Source: a virus. Taken from it: DNA of 42,526 bases. The position numbers and the translations under genes were made by a program. This document shows, piece after piece, positions 33,061 to 41,526 of this stretch; the first letter of the stretch is position 1, and the number at the start of each line of letters is the position of its first letter. The stretch spans positions 1-42,526 of IMG/VR virus record IMGVR_UViG_3300009164_000144. The stretch is one strand, 5' to 3'. The notes beneath the pieces were generated by a model that saw nothing but the letters and a program-made list of their open reading frames with translations, had not been told where the DNA came from and ran no database searches.

Positions 33061-35370
33061 TTATTTTCCTTTGTATTGTTGATCCACCATCTCTTGGTGT
33101 AACCTATCACTGCTTAATGATCGCAACGCACGAGCGTTATCGATTGTTTTTTGATTTCCGTATATGTCCTTTGGTGCATAAAATGTACCATCTTTCATTA
33201 CTGTTATTGAATACACATCAAAGCCTCGAGGTTGTGTGGCTATTGATGCAATATCTACTCCGCCTGCTAATTCATTTGGCTGCACATTCCGCTTAACTGT
33301 TTCGGTTTGTTGTTCGGTTTGTGCTGTTTCTATATTAGCACGAGTTTCTACTATTTCTGTAATAGATGTACCACGAGACATTGTACTAGTCGCAGGCATT
33401 ACAGGCATGTCAATATCTAATGATCTACTTTCTATTTTAGAAAATTGTACTGGTGCTGTTTCTGCAACTGGTTGTTGTATGGATAACAAGGAACTCAACT
33501 GTTGTTCGTTATATGTAGTACTTTTATTTGCTGAATATGCAGCAGCCATTGAAAATACCGAAGTAGCATTTATCATTGGTTGATATATCTGTTCAACTGG
33601 TGTTGTACTAGCAACCAAATTTGAAGATTGCACCGATATAGCCATTAAACTTTGCAATGAAGTTGTAGTAGGACCTTGTAACTGTATTGCTGTCACTTGC
33701 TGAGGTGTTGCAATAGAAGTTTGAGATGATTGCATAGTACGATCTTGTGTTGCTTGGCCGCTGGCAGCACTCATTGTGTTCAGCACATCCACTGTGGCCA
33801 TTGCTTGTTCTTGTGCATTAGCTGCCGAAGTTGCCGCCACTTGCTGTGCGTTCTGTACCGCTGCTGCTTGTGTAGCTCGATCTGCTGCTTGTATTTGCCC
33901 AATCAAACTCATAATTAAACTCATGTTAGGCGTTGACTTATTTGATTGTTGCTGCTGAGCACCAGCACTTGCTACTGGTGGTGCAGATGCTTGTGATTGT
34001 TGTGCTATAGCTTGTACATCTTTCAATGTTTGCGGAATATTATCTGGGGCAGTAATTGCTCCAGTTGCAGATAATTGAGCACCACCTACATTAGTAACAG
34101 GTGCGCTGGCTGTACTGGACTCTTGTTGGGAAACAGATGCTGGGCCTACTACACTTGATGTAGTAGCACTGCTCTTACTCAGACTAGCAGCAAATGCAGC
34201 ACCATATCCAGTGCAACTAGAACTATATAACGGATCTTTTGCACAAGGATCGGCAGTATAAATTATATTAGACCAAAAATTCCCAACCGACGATCCCTCA
34301 CCAGATGATGCTCCTGACAGTCTAGCGGTACCCAATGCTACTTGATTTAAACTTGATGGTAACAGGTATTTGTCTGTTACTATTCCGCTAGTACCTTCGG
34401 CTGTATAGTTATAAACTCGTTGGTTTAATATACGATTATTATTGTCGGTCACTGATGCGGTTACCCGCGCCATGGCAGGTATATCCATATACCAACTACA
34501 TGAGCCGTCGCTATTTGTAGCAGTACATCCAGACCAACTTTGACCAACATTATAGCTGAAGCCAAAATTAAATCCATGCACTGTGGCACCTATCCCCGCG
34601 TTAGTTAACGCAGTATTAATTGCAACTGCTTGATTATACGAGTTAGTAAAACCGTTTGACGGTAATAAATTATTAGTGGTAGTAACATTATTAAACCCTG
34701 CACATGTAGGTGCATATGCCGGATTTGTAATGCATGGATCAATGCGATATTTTAAACTAAAACTAACATTGTAAATTTCAGGACCGTAATTGCCAGCCCA
34801 AAAATTGTTGTCCTTACCAATAAAACCCACTTGGGCATTGCTATAGTTTGTGGCAGCAATTGGGCTAGCAAATATTTCACTAAAGTTAAATTGAGTCCAA
34901 TTGTATTTTCTATTAGTTTGGCTAGTGTAATCATAGTTTGCTGCTAGTCCACCTGCGGCATCATAAAATTTAACATAAGCACTCAAATAGTCCTGTCTGC
35001 CATCATCCCAACCATTGCCGTTCTTAGCCATAAAGCCAAAGTTGAATCCGCTGAGTTGCACACCTGTGCCGCCAGCGGCCAGTGCTCGATTTATATTAAT
35101 AATTTGATTTAAGTCGGTTTGACCGTAACTGAAATTGATATTGCCGCCATCTCTGATGCTAGGTCTAGGGCCACAATTACCGGGCTGACCAGCCTGAAAG
35201 CACAGTTGGTTGACATAGACACCGTTATTCCAGGTGCTGGTTGTATCCGTGGCACCAGTACCGGTATTAATTAAATTACCGGTAGTTGGATCTACTGTTT
35301 GACTATTAGAAGAACTTAAAGACAAAAGCACCAAGCAAAGCGCCGATGCCCAATTTCTGATACGTATCAT
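33061..35370 (-). CDS. Large exported protein with tandem beta domains and Ala/Gln-rich tail
   Basis: A 769-residue precursor with a signal peptide (MIRIRNWASALCLVLLSLSS) and probable cleavage before QTVDPTTGNL. Residues about 75-370 contain two copies of a domain: LNQIININRALAAGGTGVQL with GFNFGFMAKNGNGWDDGRQD, then YNQAVAINTALTNAGIGATV with GFNFGFSYNVGQSWSGC. Cys pairs suggest disulfides. Residues about 380-600 are Ala/Gln/Ser-rich coiled or disordered sequence; the rest is mixed. Export plus repeated beta domains suggests a surface or periplasmic adhesin-like protein. Its start overlaps the end of the next upstream gene by 65 bases, and GAGG precedes the ATG. Family not recognised. Confidence 0.8.
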   Translation of the reverse strand: MIRIRNWASALCLVLLSLSSSNSQTVDPTTGNLINTGTGATDTTSTWNNGVYVNQLCFQAGQPGNCGPRPSIRDGGNINFSYGQTDLNQIININRALAAGGTGVQLSGFNFGFMAKNGNGWDDGRQDYLSAYVKFYDAAGGLAANYDYTSQTNRKYNWTQFNFSEIFASPIAATNYSNAQVGFIGKDNNFWAGNYGPEIYNVSFSLKYRIDPCITNPAYAPTCAGFNNVTTTNNLLPSNGFTNSYNQAVAINTALTNAGIGATVHGFNFGFSYNVGQSWSGCTATNSDGSCSWYMDIPAMARVTASVTDNNNRILNQRVYNYTAEGTSGIVTDKYLLPSSLNQVALGTARLSGASSGEGSSVGNFWSNIIYTADPCAKDPLYSSSCTGYGAAFAASLSKSSATTSSVVGPASVSQQESSTASAPVTNVGGAQLSATGAITAPDNIPQTLKDVQAIAQQSQASAPPVASAGAQQQQSNKSTPNMSLIMSLIGQIQAADRATQAAAVQNAQQVAATSAANAQEQAMATVDVLNTMSAASGQATQDRTMQSSQTSIATPQQVTAIQLQGPTTTSLQSLMAISVQSSNLVASTTPVEQIYQPMINATSVFSMAAAYSANKSTTYNEQQLSSLLSIQQPVAETAPVQFSKIESRSLDIDMPVMPATSTMSRGTSITEIVETRANIETAQTEQQTETVKRNVQPNELAGGVDIASIATQPRGFDVYSITVMKDGTFYAPKDIYGNQKTIDNARALRSLSSDRLHQEMVDQQYKGK

Positions 35371-36595
35371 CTATTTTTACCTCATCTGTTTTCGGAATTT
35401 GATCTTTGTTTTCGTTCCATGCTGTACGAGCTGCTTCACCAATTTTACCATCATACGGGCAAGGTGTTCCTGCTGCTAACATAGCATCAAAAACTCTACG
35501 GTCTTGGCACATGGTAGCAACTGCTGCAACCTTCATACCCATATCGTATAATGTTTTGCTTAGTTTCAATCGTTCGCAATTCATATCACGAACTGTTCCA
35601 CCACTGCTAACACCAAATATTTGAGTTTGCACACTTCCGCTAGTACCTGTACTACATAGGTCGGCATTACCGCCCGACATCATTGTTGGTGCAACTGCTG
35701 TCGGGGGAGGTTGAATAACACGTTGGGTAATTGTTGTTTCGTTGATATTTCTGTTGGTCATGTCACCTGTATTAACATTGTTGTTTTGATTAACATTGTT
35801 ATTTTTGTTTTCACTGGTACTTGTATTGGTATTTTTATTGTCACTAGTGGATGCATTGTTATTATTATTGGTCATTGTGCCAGTATTAACATTGTTATTA
35901 TTATTGGTCATTGTGCCAGTATTAACATTGTTATTAGTGTTCACATTAGTAGCGGTACTAGTATTTGAATTAACATTATTGTTATTGTTGGTCATTGTAC
36001 CGCTGTTTATGTTGTTATTGGTGTTTACATTAGTAGCACTACTAGTATTAGAATTTTGATTAATGTTAGTCATTGTACCACTATTAACATTATTGTTATT
36101 ATTAGTGTTAACATTAGTAGCAGTACTAGTATTAATATTACGGTTTGTCATATCTCCGGTATTAACATTGTTGTTTGTATTAACATTGGTACTAGAATTT
36201 GTATTCTGATTGATGTTAGTCATTGAACCGGAATTGATGTTGTTATTAGTATACGTCATCGAACCACTATTAACATTGTTGTTATTATTAGTCATTGTAC
36301 CGTTGTTGGTATTCTGATTAATATTAGTCATTGTACCGTTGTTGGTATTATTGTTATTATTAGTGTTAACACTTGTACTACCAACGGTAGTTTGATTGAT
36401 ATTAGTTATGGTACCACTGTTGACATTATTTGTATTGACTGTGCTAGTACTATTAGAAGTACTGTTGGTATCGACCAGCGTAGTCGAACCATAGCCGCCG
36501 GTTAGGCTAGTACTTTGGTTAATCGGTGTTGTTTGCGCAATTACTGTAATGGTAAAAATTAACGCAACTATCCCCGTGAGGATTTTTCTAATCAT
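35306..36595 (-). CDS. Exported Asn/Thr-repeat protein
   Basis: A 429-residue precursor: signal peptide MIRKILTGIVALIFTITVIAQ, then about 270 residues of Asn/Thr/Ser/Gly repeats (units such as NVNTGTMTNNNNN and NINSGSMTNINQN), then a 125-residue C-terminal domain with four Cys (NADLCSTG, VRDMNCERLKL, VATMCQDR, GTPCPYDG) and a last hydrophobic segment (LGIGALLGAFVFKFF). The N/T repeats resemble the regular beta-solenoid or curlin-like repeats in spirit, but no curlin consensus is present. It could form a filament or beta-solenoid anchored at the C-terminus. AGGAG precedes the start. Its reading frame overlaps the next gene, and both precursors begin MIR, hinting at a duplicated signal region. 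Confidence 0.8.
   Translation of the reverse strand: MIRKILTGIVALIFTITVIAQTTPINQSTSLTGGYGSTTLVDTNSTSNSTSTVNTNNVNSGTITNINQTTVGSTSVNTNNNNNTNNGTMTNINQNTNNGTMTNNNNNVNSGSMTYTNNNINSGSMTNINQNTNSSTNVNTNNNVNTGDMTNRNINTSTATNVNTNNNNNVNSGTMTNINQNSNTSSATNVNTNNNINSGTMTNNNNNVNSNTSTATNVNTNNNVNTGTMTNNNNNVNTGTMTNNNNNASTSDNKNTNTSTSENKNNNVNQNNNVNTGDMTNRNINETTITQRVIQPPPTAVAPTMMSGGNADLCSTGTSGSVQTQIFGVSSGGTVRDMNCERLKLSKTLYDMGMKVAAVATMCQDRRVFDAMLAAGTPCPYDGKIGEAARTAWNENKDQIPKTDEVKIDDTYQKLGIGALLGAFVFKFF
35855..35926 (-). repeat. Exact 36-bp tandem repeat within the Asn/Thr-repeat gene
   Basis: Two identical head-to-tail copies (35855-35890 and 35891-35926), each encoding 12 residues. Near-copies of the same unit fill most of 35750-36430, so the repeat number can probably change by slippage or recombination. 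Confidence 0.8.
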
Positions 36596-40681: not shown

Positions 40682-40713
40682 ACCAATATTTACCCGTCTA
40701 ATTAATTTTAAAT

Positions 40714-40731
40714 ATTACACTTATGTTACAT
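40714..40731 (-). promoter_or_regulatory. Pho-box-like direct repeat upstream of plcP
   Basis: On the - strand: ATGTAAC-ATAA-GTGTAAT, two 7-nt repeats separated by 4 nt, which is the PhoB-box geometry (consensus CTGTCAT-N4-CTGTCAT; TGT and the following A are kept in both). -10-like TAATTA follows after 9 nt. The match is imperfect and the DNA is AT-rich. Confidence 0.4.
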
Positions 40732-40732
40732 A

Positions 40733-40755
40733 AGAAGAAACCCGCCGAAGCGGGT
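40733..40755 (-). terminator. Intrinsic terminator after the tmRNA
   Basis: A CCCGC / GCGGG stem closed by a stable TTCG tetraloop on the - strand, followed by TTTCTTCTT. It ends the tmRNA transcript, directly before the plcP promoter region. Confidence 0.85.
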
Positions 40756-40759
40756 CCTT

Positions 40760-41046
40760 GCTATTTTTGGTGACAAGGTATAACTACCTCGGGTCTAGCA
40801 ATCAAGCGGCTAGTAAAACTGCTGAGTCATTAGCGGCTTGACGTCCAAAACGGAAGTTTTTGCCCATAGTAACTTTTACAGTACCTGTTGTATTTGCGTT
40901 TGCATTTACGGATTTTGCGTCTGCAACCAAGCTTCGTCTTTCTATGCTATGAGCATAGCGACTAAAGTTACCTTAGTCCTGCGGCTTCTGCATTGCCGAG
41001 CTGTCCACTCATTTACTTGTTGCTCTGTCGAAACCAGGGCAGGCCC
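40760..41046 (-). ncRNA. ssrA: Permuted tmRNA, coding (mRNA-like) piece
   Basis: The 5' half of a tmRNA, encoded downstream of its own 3' half. It begins at 41046 with GGGCCTG, which pairs fully (one G-U) with the 3' acceptor strand CAGGTCC at 41210-41216. It then has CCCTGGTTTCGACAGAG, matching the conserved CTGGATTCGAC of the tmRNA 5' end. Downstream are hairpin/pseudoknot-like segments (GACTAAGG / CTTTAGTC and CTATGC / GCATAG), a tag reading frame ending in LAA before TGA (40802-40804), and a final helix. A segment ATAGCAA at about 40761-40767 can pair with TTGCTGT in the acceptor piece, as expected for two-piece tmRNA. The 3' end is approximate. Confidence 0.85.
40802..40903 (-). other. 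tmRNA proteolysis-tag reading frame
   Basis: From GCA at 40903 (context GTAAAT-GCAAACG, like the E. coli GCAAACG resume codon) 33 codons run to TGA at 40802-40804. The tag would start ANANTTGTVKV, contain NFRFGRQAANDS, and end AVLLAA. The last ten codons alone (40805-40834, ANDSAVLLAA) mimic the classical 10-residue AND...LAA tag, so the resume codon could also be there. Confidence 0.6.
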
Positions 41047-41059
41047 ATCAAAAAGAAAC

Positions 41060-41194
41060 TTACCATTTACCAATTGGACAATGTGCAAATGGTATTAAAG
41101 TTTTAGCCGGCATGTAACATCCGCACTTGTTGCAAACTTTTCGATCAGTATCAAAATGCTCACATACTATACAAATTGTGTACTTGTCGTTCAT
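41060..41194 (-). CDS. 44-residue Cys-rich protein inside the tmRNA intervening segment
   Basis: A complete gene between the two tmRNA pieces: AAAAAGGA starts right after the acceptor CCA, the ATG is at 41194, and TAA (41060-41062) ends 13 nt before the coding piece. The protein MNDKYTICIVCEHF, then VCNKCGCYMPAKTLI, ending FAHCPIGKW, has six Cys and two His arranged as C-x2-C ... C-x2-C-x-C ... C, a likely zinc ribbon. The C-terminal CP-x-x-KW ending occurs in small Cys-rich proteins of T4-like phages; function unknown. To be translated it must be read from the tmRNA precursor or from the excised spacer. Confidence 0.82.
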   Translation of the reverse strand: MNDKYTICIVCEHFDTDRKVCNKCGCYMPAKTLIPFAHCPIGKW

Positions 41195-41205
41195 GAATTC
41201 CTTTT

Positions 41206-41285
41206 TGGTGGACCTGGCGGGAGTCGAACCCGCGTCCAGAACACTTTTCTCTTTGCTTCATACAGCAATAACTTTTATTTATCTC
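41206..41285 (-). ncRNA. ssrA: Permuted tmRNA, acceptor piece (3' half)
   Basis: On the - strand this ends ...GTTCTGGACGCGGG, the T-arm GCGGGTTCGACTCCCGC (41217-41233), CAGGTCC (41210-41216), discriminator A and CCA (41206-41208). It matches the 3' end of E. coli tmRNA (GTTCGGACGCGGGTTC, CTCCCGCCAG, CCACCA) almost base for base. Upstream, TTGCTGT can pair with the coding piece. Because the 5' half lies downstream rather than upstream, the gene is circularly permuted, as in alphaproteobacteria, some betaproteobacteria and cyanobacteria. The 5' boundary is estimated; the preceding gene's stop codon is at 41290. Confidence 0.9.
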
Positions 41286-41289
41286 CAAA

Positions 41290-41526
41290 TCAATGTCTCA
41301 CAGCAAACATACTGCTGATCATTGCTCTTACTAAAACTAAATCACTTTCACATGTAACTTCTATAGGTTCATCAAGATCTTCATCATCTTCCCATGCTTC
41401 CTTTGGAAACTGTAAAAAAGTAAAGATAGTTCTAAAGGTCACAGTCCTGCCTTGCGTGTAAGCCAACTCTATCACATCCACTATAGAATTCACCACCTGC
41501 TGTGTCTTGAAATCTAGCGGAGTCAT
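41290..41526 (-). CDS. Small acidic phage protein of unknown function
   Basis: A 78-residue soluble protein starting MTPLDFKTQQVVNSIVDVIE. A helical first half is followed by an acidic segment (EAWEDDEDLDEPIEVTC) and a C-terminal helix (LVLVRAMISSMFAVRH). The stop lies about 5 nt before the estimated 5' end of the tmRNA acceptor piece, so tmRNA is probably transcribed with this gene. Weak ribosome-binding site. No family recognised. Confidence 0.7.
   Translation of the reverse strand: MTPLDFKTQQVVNSIVDVIELAYTQGRTVTFRTIFTFLQFPKEAWEDDEDLDEPIEVTCESDLVLVRAMISSMFAVRH

Follow-up and report, generated by a model that had tools for sequence, protein, structure and literature searches.

A phage circularly permuted tmRNA gene with a complete protein gene in its intervening segment: one transcript that appears to serve as both rescue RNA and messenger

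Can one transcript serve both as a ribosome-rescue RNA and as a messenger? The question is raised by a locus on the minus strand of a virus record of 42,526 bases (the window, by which we mean this whole stretch of DNA), where a first-pass annotation had described a circularly permuted phage tmRNA gene with a complete gene inside its intervening segment (IVS). We confirm this architecture, which recurs in many relatives. The Rfam model of permuted tmRNAs, RF04321, scored above its gathering score in the window, matching positions 41267-40802 of the minus strand (88 bits vs. a gathering score of 47; E 1e-15). ARAGORN likewise reports a permuted tmRNA at 40711-41298, minus strand, with the tag ANANTTGTVKVTMGKNFRFGRQAANDSAVLLAA. 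In transcript order, the 3′ piece is followed by a 159-nt IVS and then by the 5′ piece, which starts with GGGCCTG (41046) and runs on to TGGTTTCGAC. The features of the locus, all on the minus strand, are:

41206..41275 (5′ limit approximate), minus: 3′ (acceptor) piece, encoded first, with the T-arm, CAGGTCC and the ACCA end at 41206 (RF04321, motif, ARAGORN)
41047..41205, minus: IVS, 159 nt, from the CCA to the mature 5′ end (RF04321 alignment, parser)
41198..41205, minus: 5′ strand of the predicted IVS end-stem, AAAAGGAA, which includes the Shine-Dalgarno (SD) sequence AAGGA, 41203-41199 (precursor fold, covariation in 92 non-redundant IVSs)
41051..41058, minus: 3′ strand of the predicted IVS end-stem, followed by UGAU (41050-41047) facing ACCA (precursor fold, covariation)
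41060..41194, minus: nested gene, 44 codons, Cys-rich, PHROG 13558 (DUF6171-like), with its TAA ending at 41060 (ORF, PHROG and Pfam matches)
40760..41046 (3′ limit approximate), minus: 5′ (mRNA-like) piece, GGGCCTG... (ARAGORN, RF04321)
40802..40903, minus: tag frame, 33 aa ending AANDSAVLLAA, with stop (ARAGORN)
40738..40757, minus: terminator-like hairpin with a T-rich tail, 3′ of the tmRNA (site count vs. shuffles)

The motif made up of the T-arm, CAGGTCC and ACCA (41237-41206) occurs once in the window and never in shuffled sequences. The acceptor strands GGGCCUG and CAGGUCC form 7/7 pairs with one G-U, exactly as had been claimed from the sequence. RF01850, the model for beta-type permuted tmRNAs, stayed below its gathering threshold in the window, leaving RF04321 as the only model listed there. 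No intron family in Rfam matched the window, where the T-arm is uninterrupted. The precursor around the IVS folds with a z of -3.78. Promoter-like sites were not in excess (1 in 1 kb vs. 2.1 expected), and two terminator-like sites were found, one per strand at the same hairpin, where shuffles predict 0.6. The AVLLAA end of the tag is a proteolysis-type tail. This AANDS..LLAA end follows a long extension; a similar frame was seen by eye in locus L095, and tags of 23-31 aa are present in L011, L015, L028, L058, L082 and L137.

The nested ORF (41194-41060, minus strand) encodes 44 aa from ATG to TAA, with AAGGA ending 4 nt upstream of the ATG. Its length is weak evidence for a gene, since the frame remains open in 5.9% of mononucleotide shuffles of the window IVS (0.0585). 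Its product matches PHROG 13558 with an E of 9.8e-13 and PF19668 (DUF6171) with 18.5 bits, under the curated cutoff of 27, and these were the only Pfam and PHROG matches at E 0.1. When the protein is aligned with 33 of the 80 fetched relatives, none of its six Cys residues varies; L280, one of the relatives viewed but not included, has an insertion between the Cys. The pattern read from the relatives, CxxC-x8or9-CxxCxC-x12-CPxxKW, is present in the window protein. AlphaFold models the protein with a pLDDT of 88, and a Foldseek search with this structure gave no PDB match. By tblastn, the family was found in 68 phage records, where most matches coincide with annotated hypothetical proteins. None of the 80 nearest relatives (of 544 encoding one) was placed within an IVS by our parser, so that selection on the window ORF as a coding frame in its present location rests on the intact family motif, not on dN/dS. 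In Xanthomonas phage X1 and Stenotrophomonas phage Mendera, a family member lies about 0.5 kb and 1.1 kb, respectively, upstream of a permuted tmRNA that carries no SD-led gene in its IVS, which suggests that the nested gene was captured from the tmRNA neighbourhood. Around the relatives of another window protein (80 of them, up to 10 kb on each side), a single permuted tmRNA was found, L393, with a 61-nt IVS and no convincing ORF. Elsewhere in the window (33061-36595, minus strand) lies a tandem of genes for a 429-aa protein (PHROG 20531) and a 769-aa protein; a homologue of the former (62% over 117 aa) sits beside the permuted tmRNA of locus L231, where it is followed by a large protein with patchy similarity only to the 769-aa protein.

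We scanned viral contigs with four patterns, each demanding a T-arm and TGGTTTCGAC 124-247 nt apart. The scans returned 62, 86, 21 and 24 stretches (193 in all, 192 distinct loci), and a parser demanding at least 6/7 acceptor pairs and an encoded CCA accepted 43, 75, 12 and 17 of these, or 147 permuted tmRNAs. An ORF fills the IVS in 92 of the 147, ruling out that the window ORF is a unique accident. Together with the window, L231 and six cultured-phage records, the full set comprises 155 loci and 115 distinct IVSs, 67 coding and 48 other. This split is partly manual: 77 of the 115 passed the automatic ORF rule, and ten of these were then dropped by eye for want of an SD or for a weak start (L004, L006, L007, L013, L017, L056, L078, L079, L107 and L133). 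L162, with a distant ATG and a frame resembling that of family F3, was kept in the other class, while L200 was given a TTG start for start and stop positions only, its frame being short in the shuffle and family analyses. ARAGORN called a permuted tmRNA in 25/27 coding and 18/18 other loci, plus L162 (46 of the 155 loci were given to it). RF04321 matched 20/20 loci with a coding IVS (20 of 94 coding contigs) and 15/15 further loci (14 other, one coding), with RF01850 above its cutoff in 13 of the first 20. The annotation had also proposed looking for related contigs with the same split and ORF, and for conservation of the frame. The split was found in numbers, but with the window's own protein in none of the 80 cases above; conservation is seen as purifying selection on same-site frames in most of the testable families of other phages.

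The 67 coding IVSs, including those of the window and L231, fall into 38 ORF families with no detectable mutual similarity (BLASTP E < 1e-3, single linkage). Mononucleotide shuffling of the interiors predicts that 2.98 of the 38 families would stay open, a guide rather than an unbiased test because the set was chosen for open frames. In 13 of the 15 families with at least two members, dN/dS was 0.07-0.44, several of these values resting on few substitutions. The ratio was 0.92 in family F5 and undefined by saturation in F3 (pS 0.96, pN 0.08, two of three members used). Over the 15 families, the pooled pN/pS was 0.345, and 128, 114 and 237 substitutions fell at codon positions 1, 2 and 3, respectively. 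By these substitution patterns, the IVS ORFs are genes. Searches of PHROGs and of Pfam with ten IVS proteins each (eleven families in all) gave nothing better than E 0.001 and no match named as a nuclease; the F14 protein had no match at E 0.1 among phage records, and no phage record covered 80% of the L191 tmRNA region. A self-splicing intron or homing element was rejected, as the window and the 35 loci scanned gave no Rfam intron match at gathering score, and the matches of the eleven IVS ORF families were weaker than E 0.001. The IVSs of L080, L116, L147 and L162 differ in their leaders but all encode an F3-type protein (motif YYT..EW.R, by eye), the start in L162 lying far from the CCA.

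What would connect these genes to the tmRNA around them is a helix. Nucleotides 1-8 of the IVS can pair with the 8 nt just ahead of its final four, and the resulting helix continues the acceptor stem in register by 8 bp. Among non-redundant IVSs, 343/360 helix cells are paired in 45 coding and 333/376 in 47 other sequences; the combined 676/736 compares with a mean of 430 and a maximum of 469 for shuffled partners. Sliding the partner by 1 to 3 positions lowers the counts to at most 244 of 360 and 200 of 376, respectively. By this measure, the IVS end helix covaries. In coding IVSs, its 5′ strand tends to be an SD site: an SD-like 4-mer occurs in the first 9 nt of 32/45 coding vs. 1/47 other non-redundant IVSs, although the comparison is to some extent circular, some of the ten IVSs having been dropped for want of an SD. 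At helix positions 4-5, G-U replaces a Watson-Crick pair in 31/85 coding vs. 6/84 other pairs (p 4e-6, uncorrected for kinship), as would be the case if the match to 16S rRNA fixed the G's and left the partner side free to drift. The IVS of L171 ends in UGGU rather than UGAU.

The starts and stops of the ORFs are also regularly placed. The start is ATG in 63/67 coding IVSs and lies 7-20 nt past the CCA. At the level of families, the stop falls 1 nt before the mature 5′ end in 17/38, directly before the closing strand (-12/-13) in 10/38 and at -7 in one. In the remaining 10/38, the frame has no stop inside the IVS and runs beyond it; in nine of these ten, a codon boundary coincides exactly with the expected cleavage site. 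The third frame is used by 1/38 families.

The best explanation, which we consider likely, is that the nested gene is expressed from the pre-tmRNA itself, with its SD sequence embedded in the closing stem. One precursor RNA would thus yield two products. RNA polymerase would make the 3′ acceptor piece first, followed by the SD site and the small ORF, and ribosomes could load and translate the ORF as long as neither the closing IVS strand nor the 5′ piece has been made. Once transcription reached the IVS 3′ strand and GGGCCUG, the acceptor stem would form together with its 8-bp extension and hide the SD. The closed stem would offer its ends to tRNA-processing enzymes, which, by analogy with known permuted tmRNAs, would cut between U and GGG and trim to the CCA, leaving a two-piece tmRNA. 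Because closure would both hide the SD and present the ends for processing, the helix would be dual-purpose, a closing stem and an off-switch for the ORF. Translation during transcription is favoured by the SD being hidden in the complete helix but exposed while the ORF is being transcribed; taken alone, this timing is a more tentative proposal, falling slightly short of an even chance. The mean unpaired probability of the SD is 0.039 in the precursor and 0.148 in the excised IVS (66 of 67 coding IVSs, L200 being left out and 5/66 having only an A-run in place of an SD), compared to 0.55 for 161 ordinary SD-led genes of the same contigs. Equilibrium folding thus leaves the SD nearly always paired, which could equally mean that the ORF is hardly translated.

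The content of the IVS can change while the tmRNA stays the same. Loci L139 and L193 are identical at 75/75 bases of their 3′ pieces and 209/210 of their 5′ pieces, with unlike IVSs, one of 122 nt without a spanning ORF and the other of 209 nt with a 61-aa gene. Their flanks align with 98.5% and 95.2% identity, then with 90.8% farther downstream, and similarity first breaks off at the IVS. Among 17 pairs whose flanks are homologous on either side, 11 have had the IVS replaced, the pairs other than L139/L193 being 67-76% identical and some loci appearing in several pairs. That near-identical tmRNAs carry different IVSs suggests that the IVS behaves as an exchangeable cargo site; such exchange between related phages is shown at the sequence level, as are the permuted tmRNA, the nested frames, the selection on them in relatives and the covarying SD helix. 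Mapped onto a tree of 110 tmRNA bodies, the label (coding or other) changes at least 23 times vs. a shuffled mean of 35.5, indicating that IVS class is partly inherited, and 10 of the 23 changes are forced by well-supported branches (quick search, long branches flagged). The tmRNA body nearest to that of the window, L095, has a different IVS without a spanning ORF.

These exchanges bear on a second reading, in which the IVS is a site for parasitic or neutral cargo: whatever its sequence, an insert of about 30 to 220 nt would be tolerated provided that it preserves the end-stem, and the genes would be kept for their own products with no regulatory tie to the tmRNA. Both the replacement of IVSs between related phages and the accumulation at one site of 38 mutually dissimilar ORF families and many dissimilar gene-less IVSs agree with it. 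The SD within the helix, the G-U excess, the narrow range of start positions and the abutting stops look too uniform for such cargo, although packing alone could explain them. We hold this reading to be possible, though we lean against it; it overlaps with expression from the pre-tmRNA, as does the release of the IVS considered below.

The IVSs without an SD-led spanning gene (55/147; e.g. L010, L012, L035, L072, L089, L094, L098, L104, L139 and L156) are mostly dissimilar to one another, 46 sequences forming 38 nucleotide clusters. Rfam gave nothing beyond tmRNA and separate tRNAs in 15 loci, 14 of them without a gene. These IVSs may be unknown structured RNAs; simple folding lends the idea no support (mean z -0.48), and in the group of L089, L094, L104 and L156 there are 6 pairs with changes on both sides. 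T-arm-like motifs in the IVSs of L107 (GTGGGTTCGAATCCCAC), L010 and L110 suggest tRNA-like inserts, and sequences resembling tRNA genes were seen by eye in those of L158 and L174. In L017 and L051, two tandem T-arm/acceptor pieces precede a single 5′ piece, so that part of the tmRNA looks duplicated.

If the IVS were instead excised by RNase P and a 3′ nuclease, much as the annotation had envisaged with RNase P/Z, the freed linear RNA could be the messenger, and processing would switch translation on, the helix being no longer held by the acceptor stem. Consistent with this, excision raises the unpaired probability of the SD above its precursor value in 64/66 cases, and a stop inside the IVS survives the cut, lying 1 nt before the 3′ end in the 17 families mentioned above. 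The gain in accessibility is small, from 0.039 to 0.148 and far under the 0.55 of ordinary genes, and an SD that is mostly paired even after excision makes simple release a weaker account than translation before stem closure. Moreover, ten families would lose their stop on cutting, and the excised IVS of 23S rRNA is described as rapidly degraded in Coxiella (PMC4990558). We consider release unlikely. That the ORFs are spurious and the IVS merely a structured non-coding spacer is highly improbable and already contradicted: the 37% of scan IVSs without such an ORF do imply that the site needs none, and the interiors of coding IVSs show more structure than do ordinary coding segments (mean z -1.64, n=67, vs. 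-0.54, n=254; p 2e-11, rows not independent), but 13/15 families are under purifying selection, SD and start occupy fixed places, and the window ORF is homologous to a phage family found elsewhere outside tmRNA genes.

A broader version of expression from the pre-tmRNA would make it a general expression device of phages, an exchangeable cargo loop on the acceptor stem whose protein is produced only during the seconds that separate synthesis of the SD from that of the closing strand. No more than a few copies of the cargo protein would then accompany each tmRNA. In the ten stopless families, maturation would convert the message into a non-stop mRNA, a substrate of the same tmRNA, giving a self-limiting feedback. 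We find this extension rather doubtful on present sequence data. A possible parallel for these ten families is arfA of E. coli, a small ORF that RNA cleavage renders non-stop and thereby places under tmRNA control (PMC3985003, PMC10107115). There, a separate gene is cut by RNase III in a coding hairpin, whereas here the putative cut would be tmRNA maturation itself.

Two other known systems place a protein gene within the gene of a stable RNA. According to PMC4990558, the 23S rRNA IVSs of Coxiella and Leptospira are excised spacers of a stable RNA with complementary ends and an S23p ORF inside; they are cut by RNase III and carry one protein family, and in Coxiella excision removes the SD and the ORF is thought to be unexpressed and decaying. 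In contrast, the phage tmRNA IVSs hold 38 families with the SD inside the predicted spacer and frames under selection. Some group I introns of tmRNA genes contain homing endonuclease genes and so also put a protein gene in an interrupted tmRNA gene, but these are self-splicing and lie in the T-loop (PMC11915505). The same source describes the spacer of a two-piece tmRNA as sequence that the mature RNA lacks, and mentions one IVS containing a tRNA-Ala gene and one a repetitive element. Among the titles and abstracts searched, we recognized no protein gene in a tmRNA IVS, a result that does not establish its absence from print.

The phage loci share their gene order, acceptor pairing, CCA and tag frame with beta-type permuted tmRNAs (RF04321, RF01850). 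Among 120 genomes from the order of a Comamonadaceae bacterium, three scored above the beta-tmRNA cutoff, and the two that parsed have gene-less IVSs of 24 and 30 nt, compared to 101-223 nt with a conserved frame for the coding phage loop. The 30-nt IVS, of the Burkholderiales tmRNA L332, has ends of the same kind, AAAG...CTTTTGAT, and many of the phage IVSs also end in CTTTTGAT, from which we infer that phages probably expanded a short bacterial hairpin into the present loop. That the coding arrangement is a bacterial feature was rejected: in bacterial genome contigs, searched for one IVS length range with exact motifs, only one of 42 stretches, L231, passed as a permuted tmRNA. Its contig has phage genes, among them one for an endolysin, as well as a gene whose product shares 62% identity over 117 aa with a window protein, and is probably a misbinned phage. 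In the seven cultured phages that parsed (L002-L007 and L324), no SD-led ORF was seen by eye, L004, L006 and L007 having passed the automatic rule before being dropped; L323 could not be parsed. Two-piece tmRNAs are also known from marine cultured phages (PMC9004378), which lie outside this set.

In the window phage and in dozens of other uncultured phages, one transcript thus appears to be both rescue RNA and messenger. If so, dozens of small phage genes would reside within RNA genes, where annotation may not look. It would also offer a testable answer to the question of why phages carry permuted tmRNAs, which may be vehicles for small proteins in addition to rescuing ribosomes. The shared helix would provide a clean system in which to study the competition among translation, RNA folding and tRNA-type processing.
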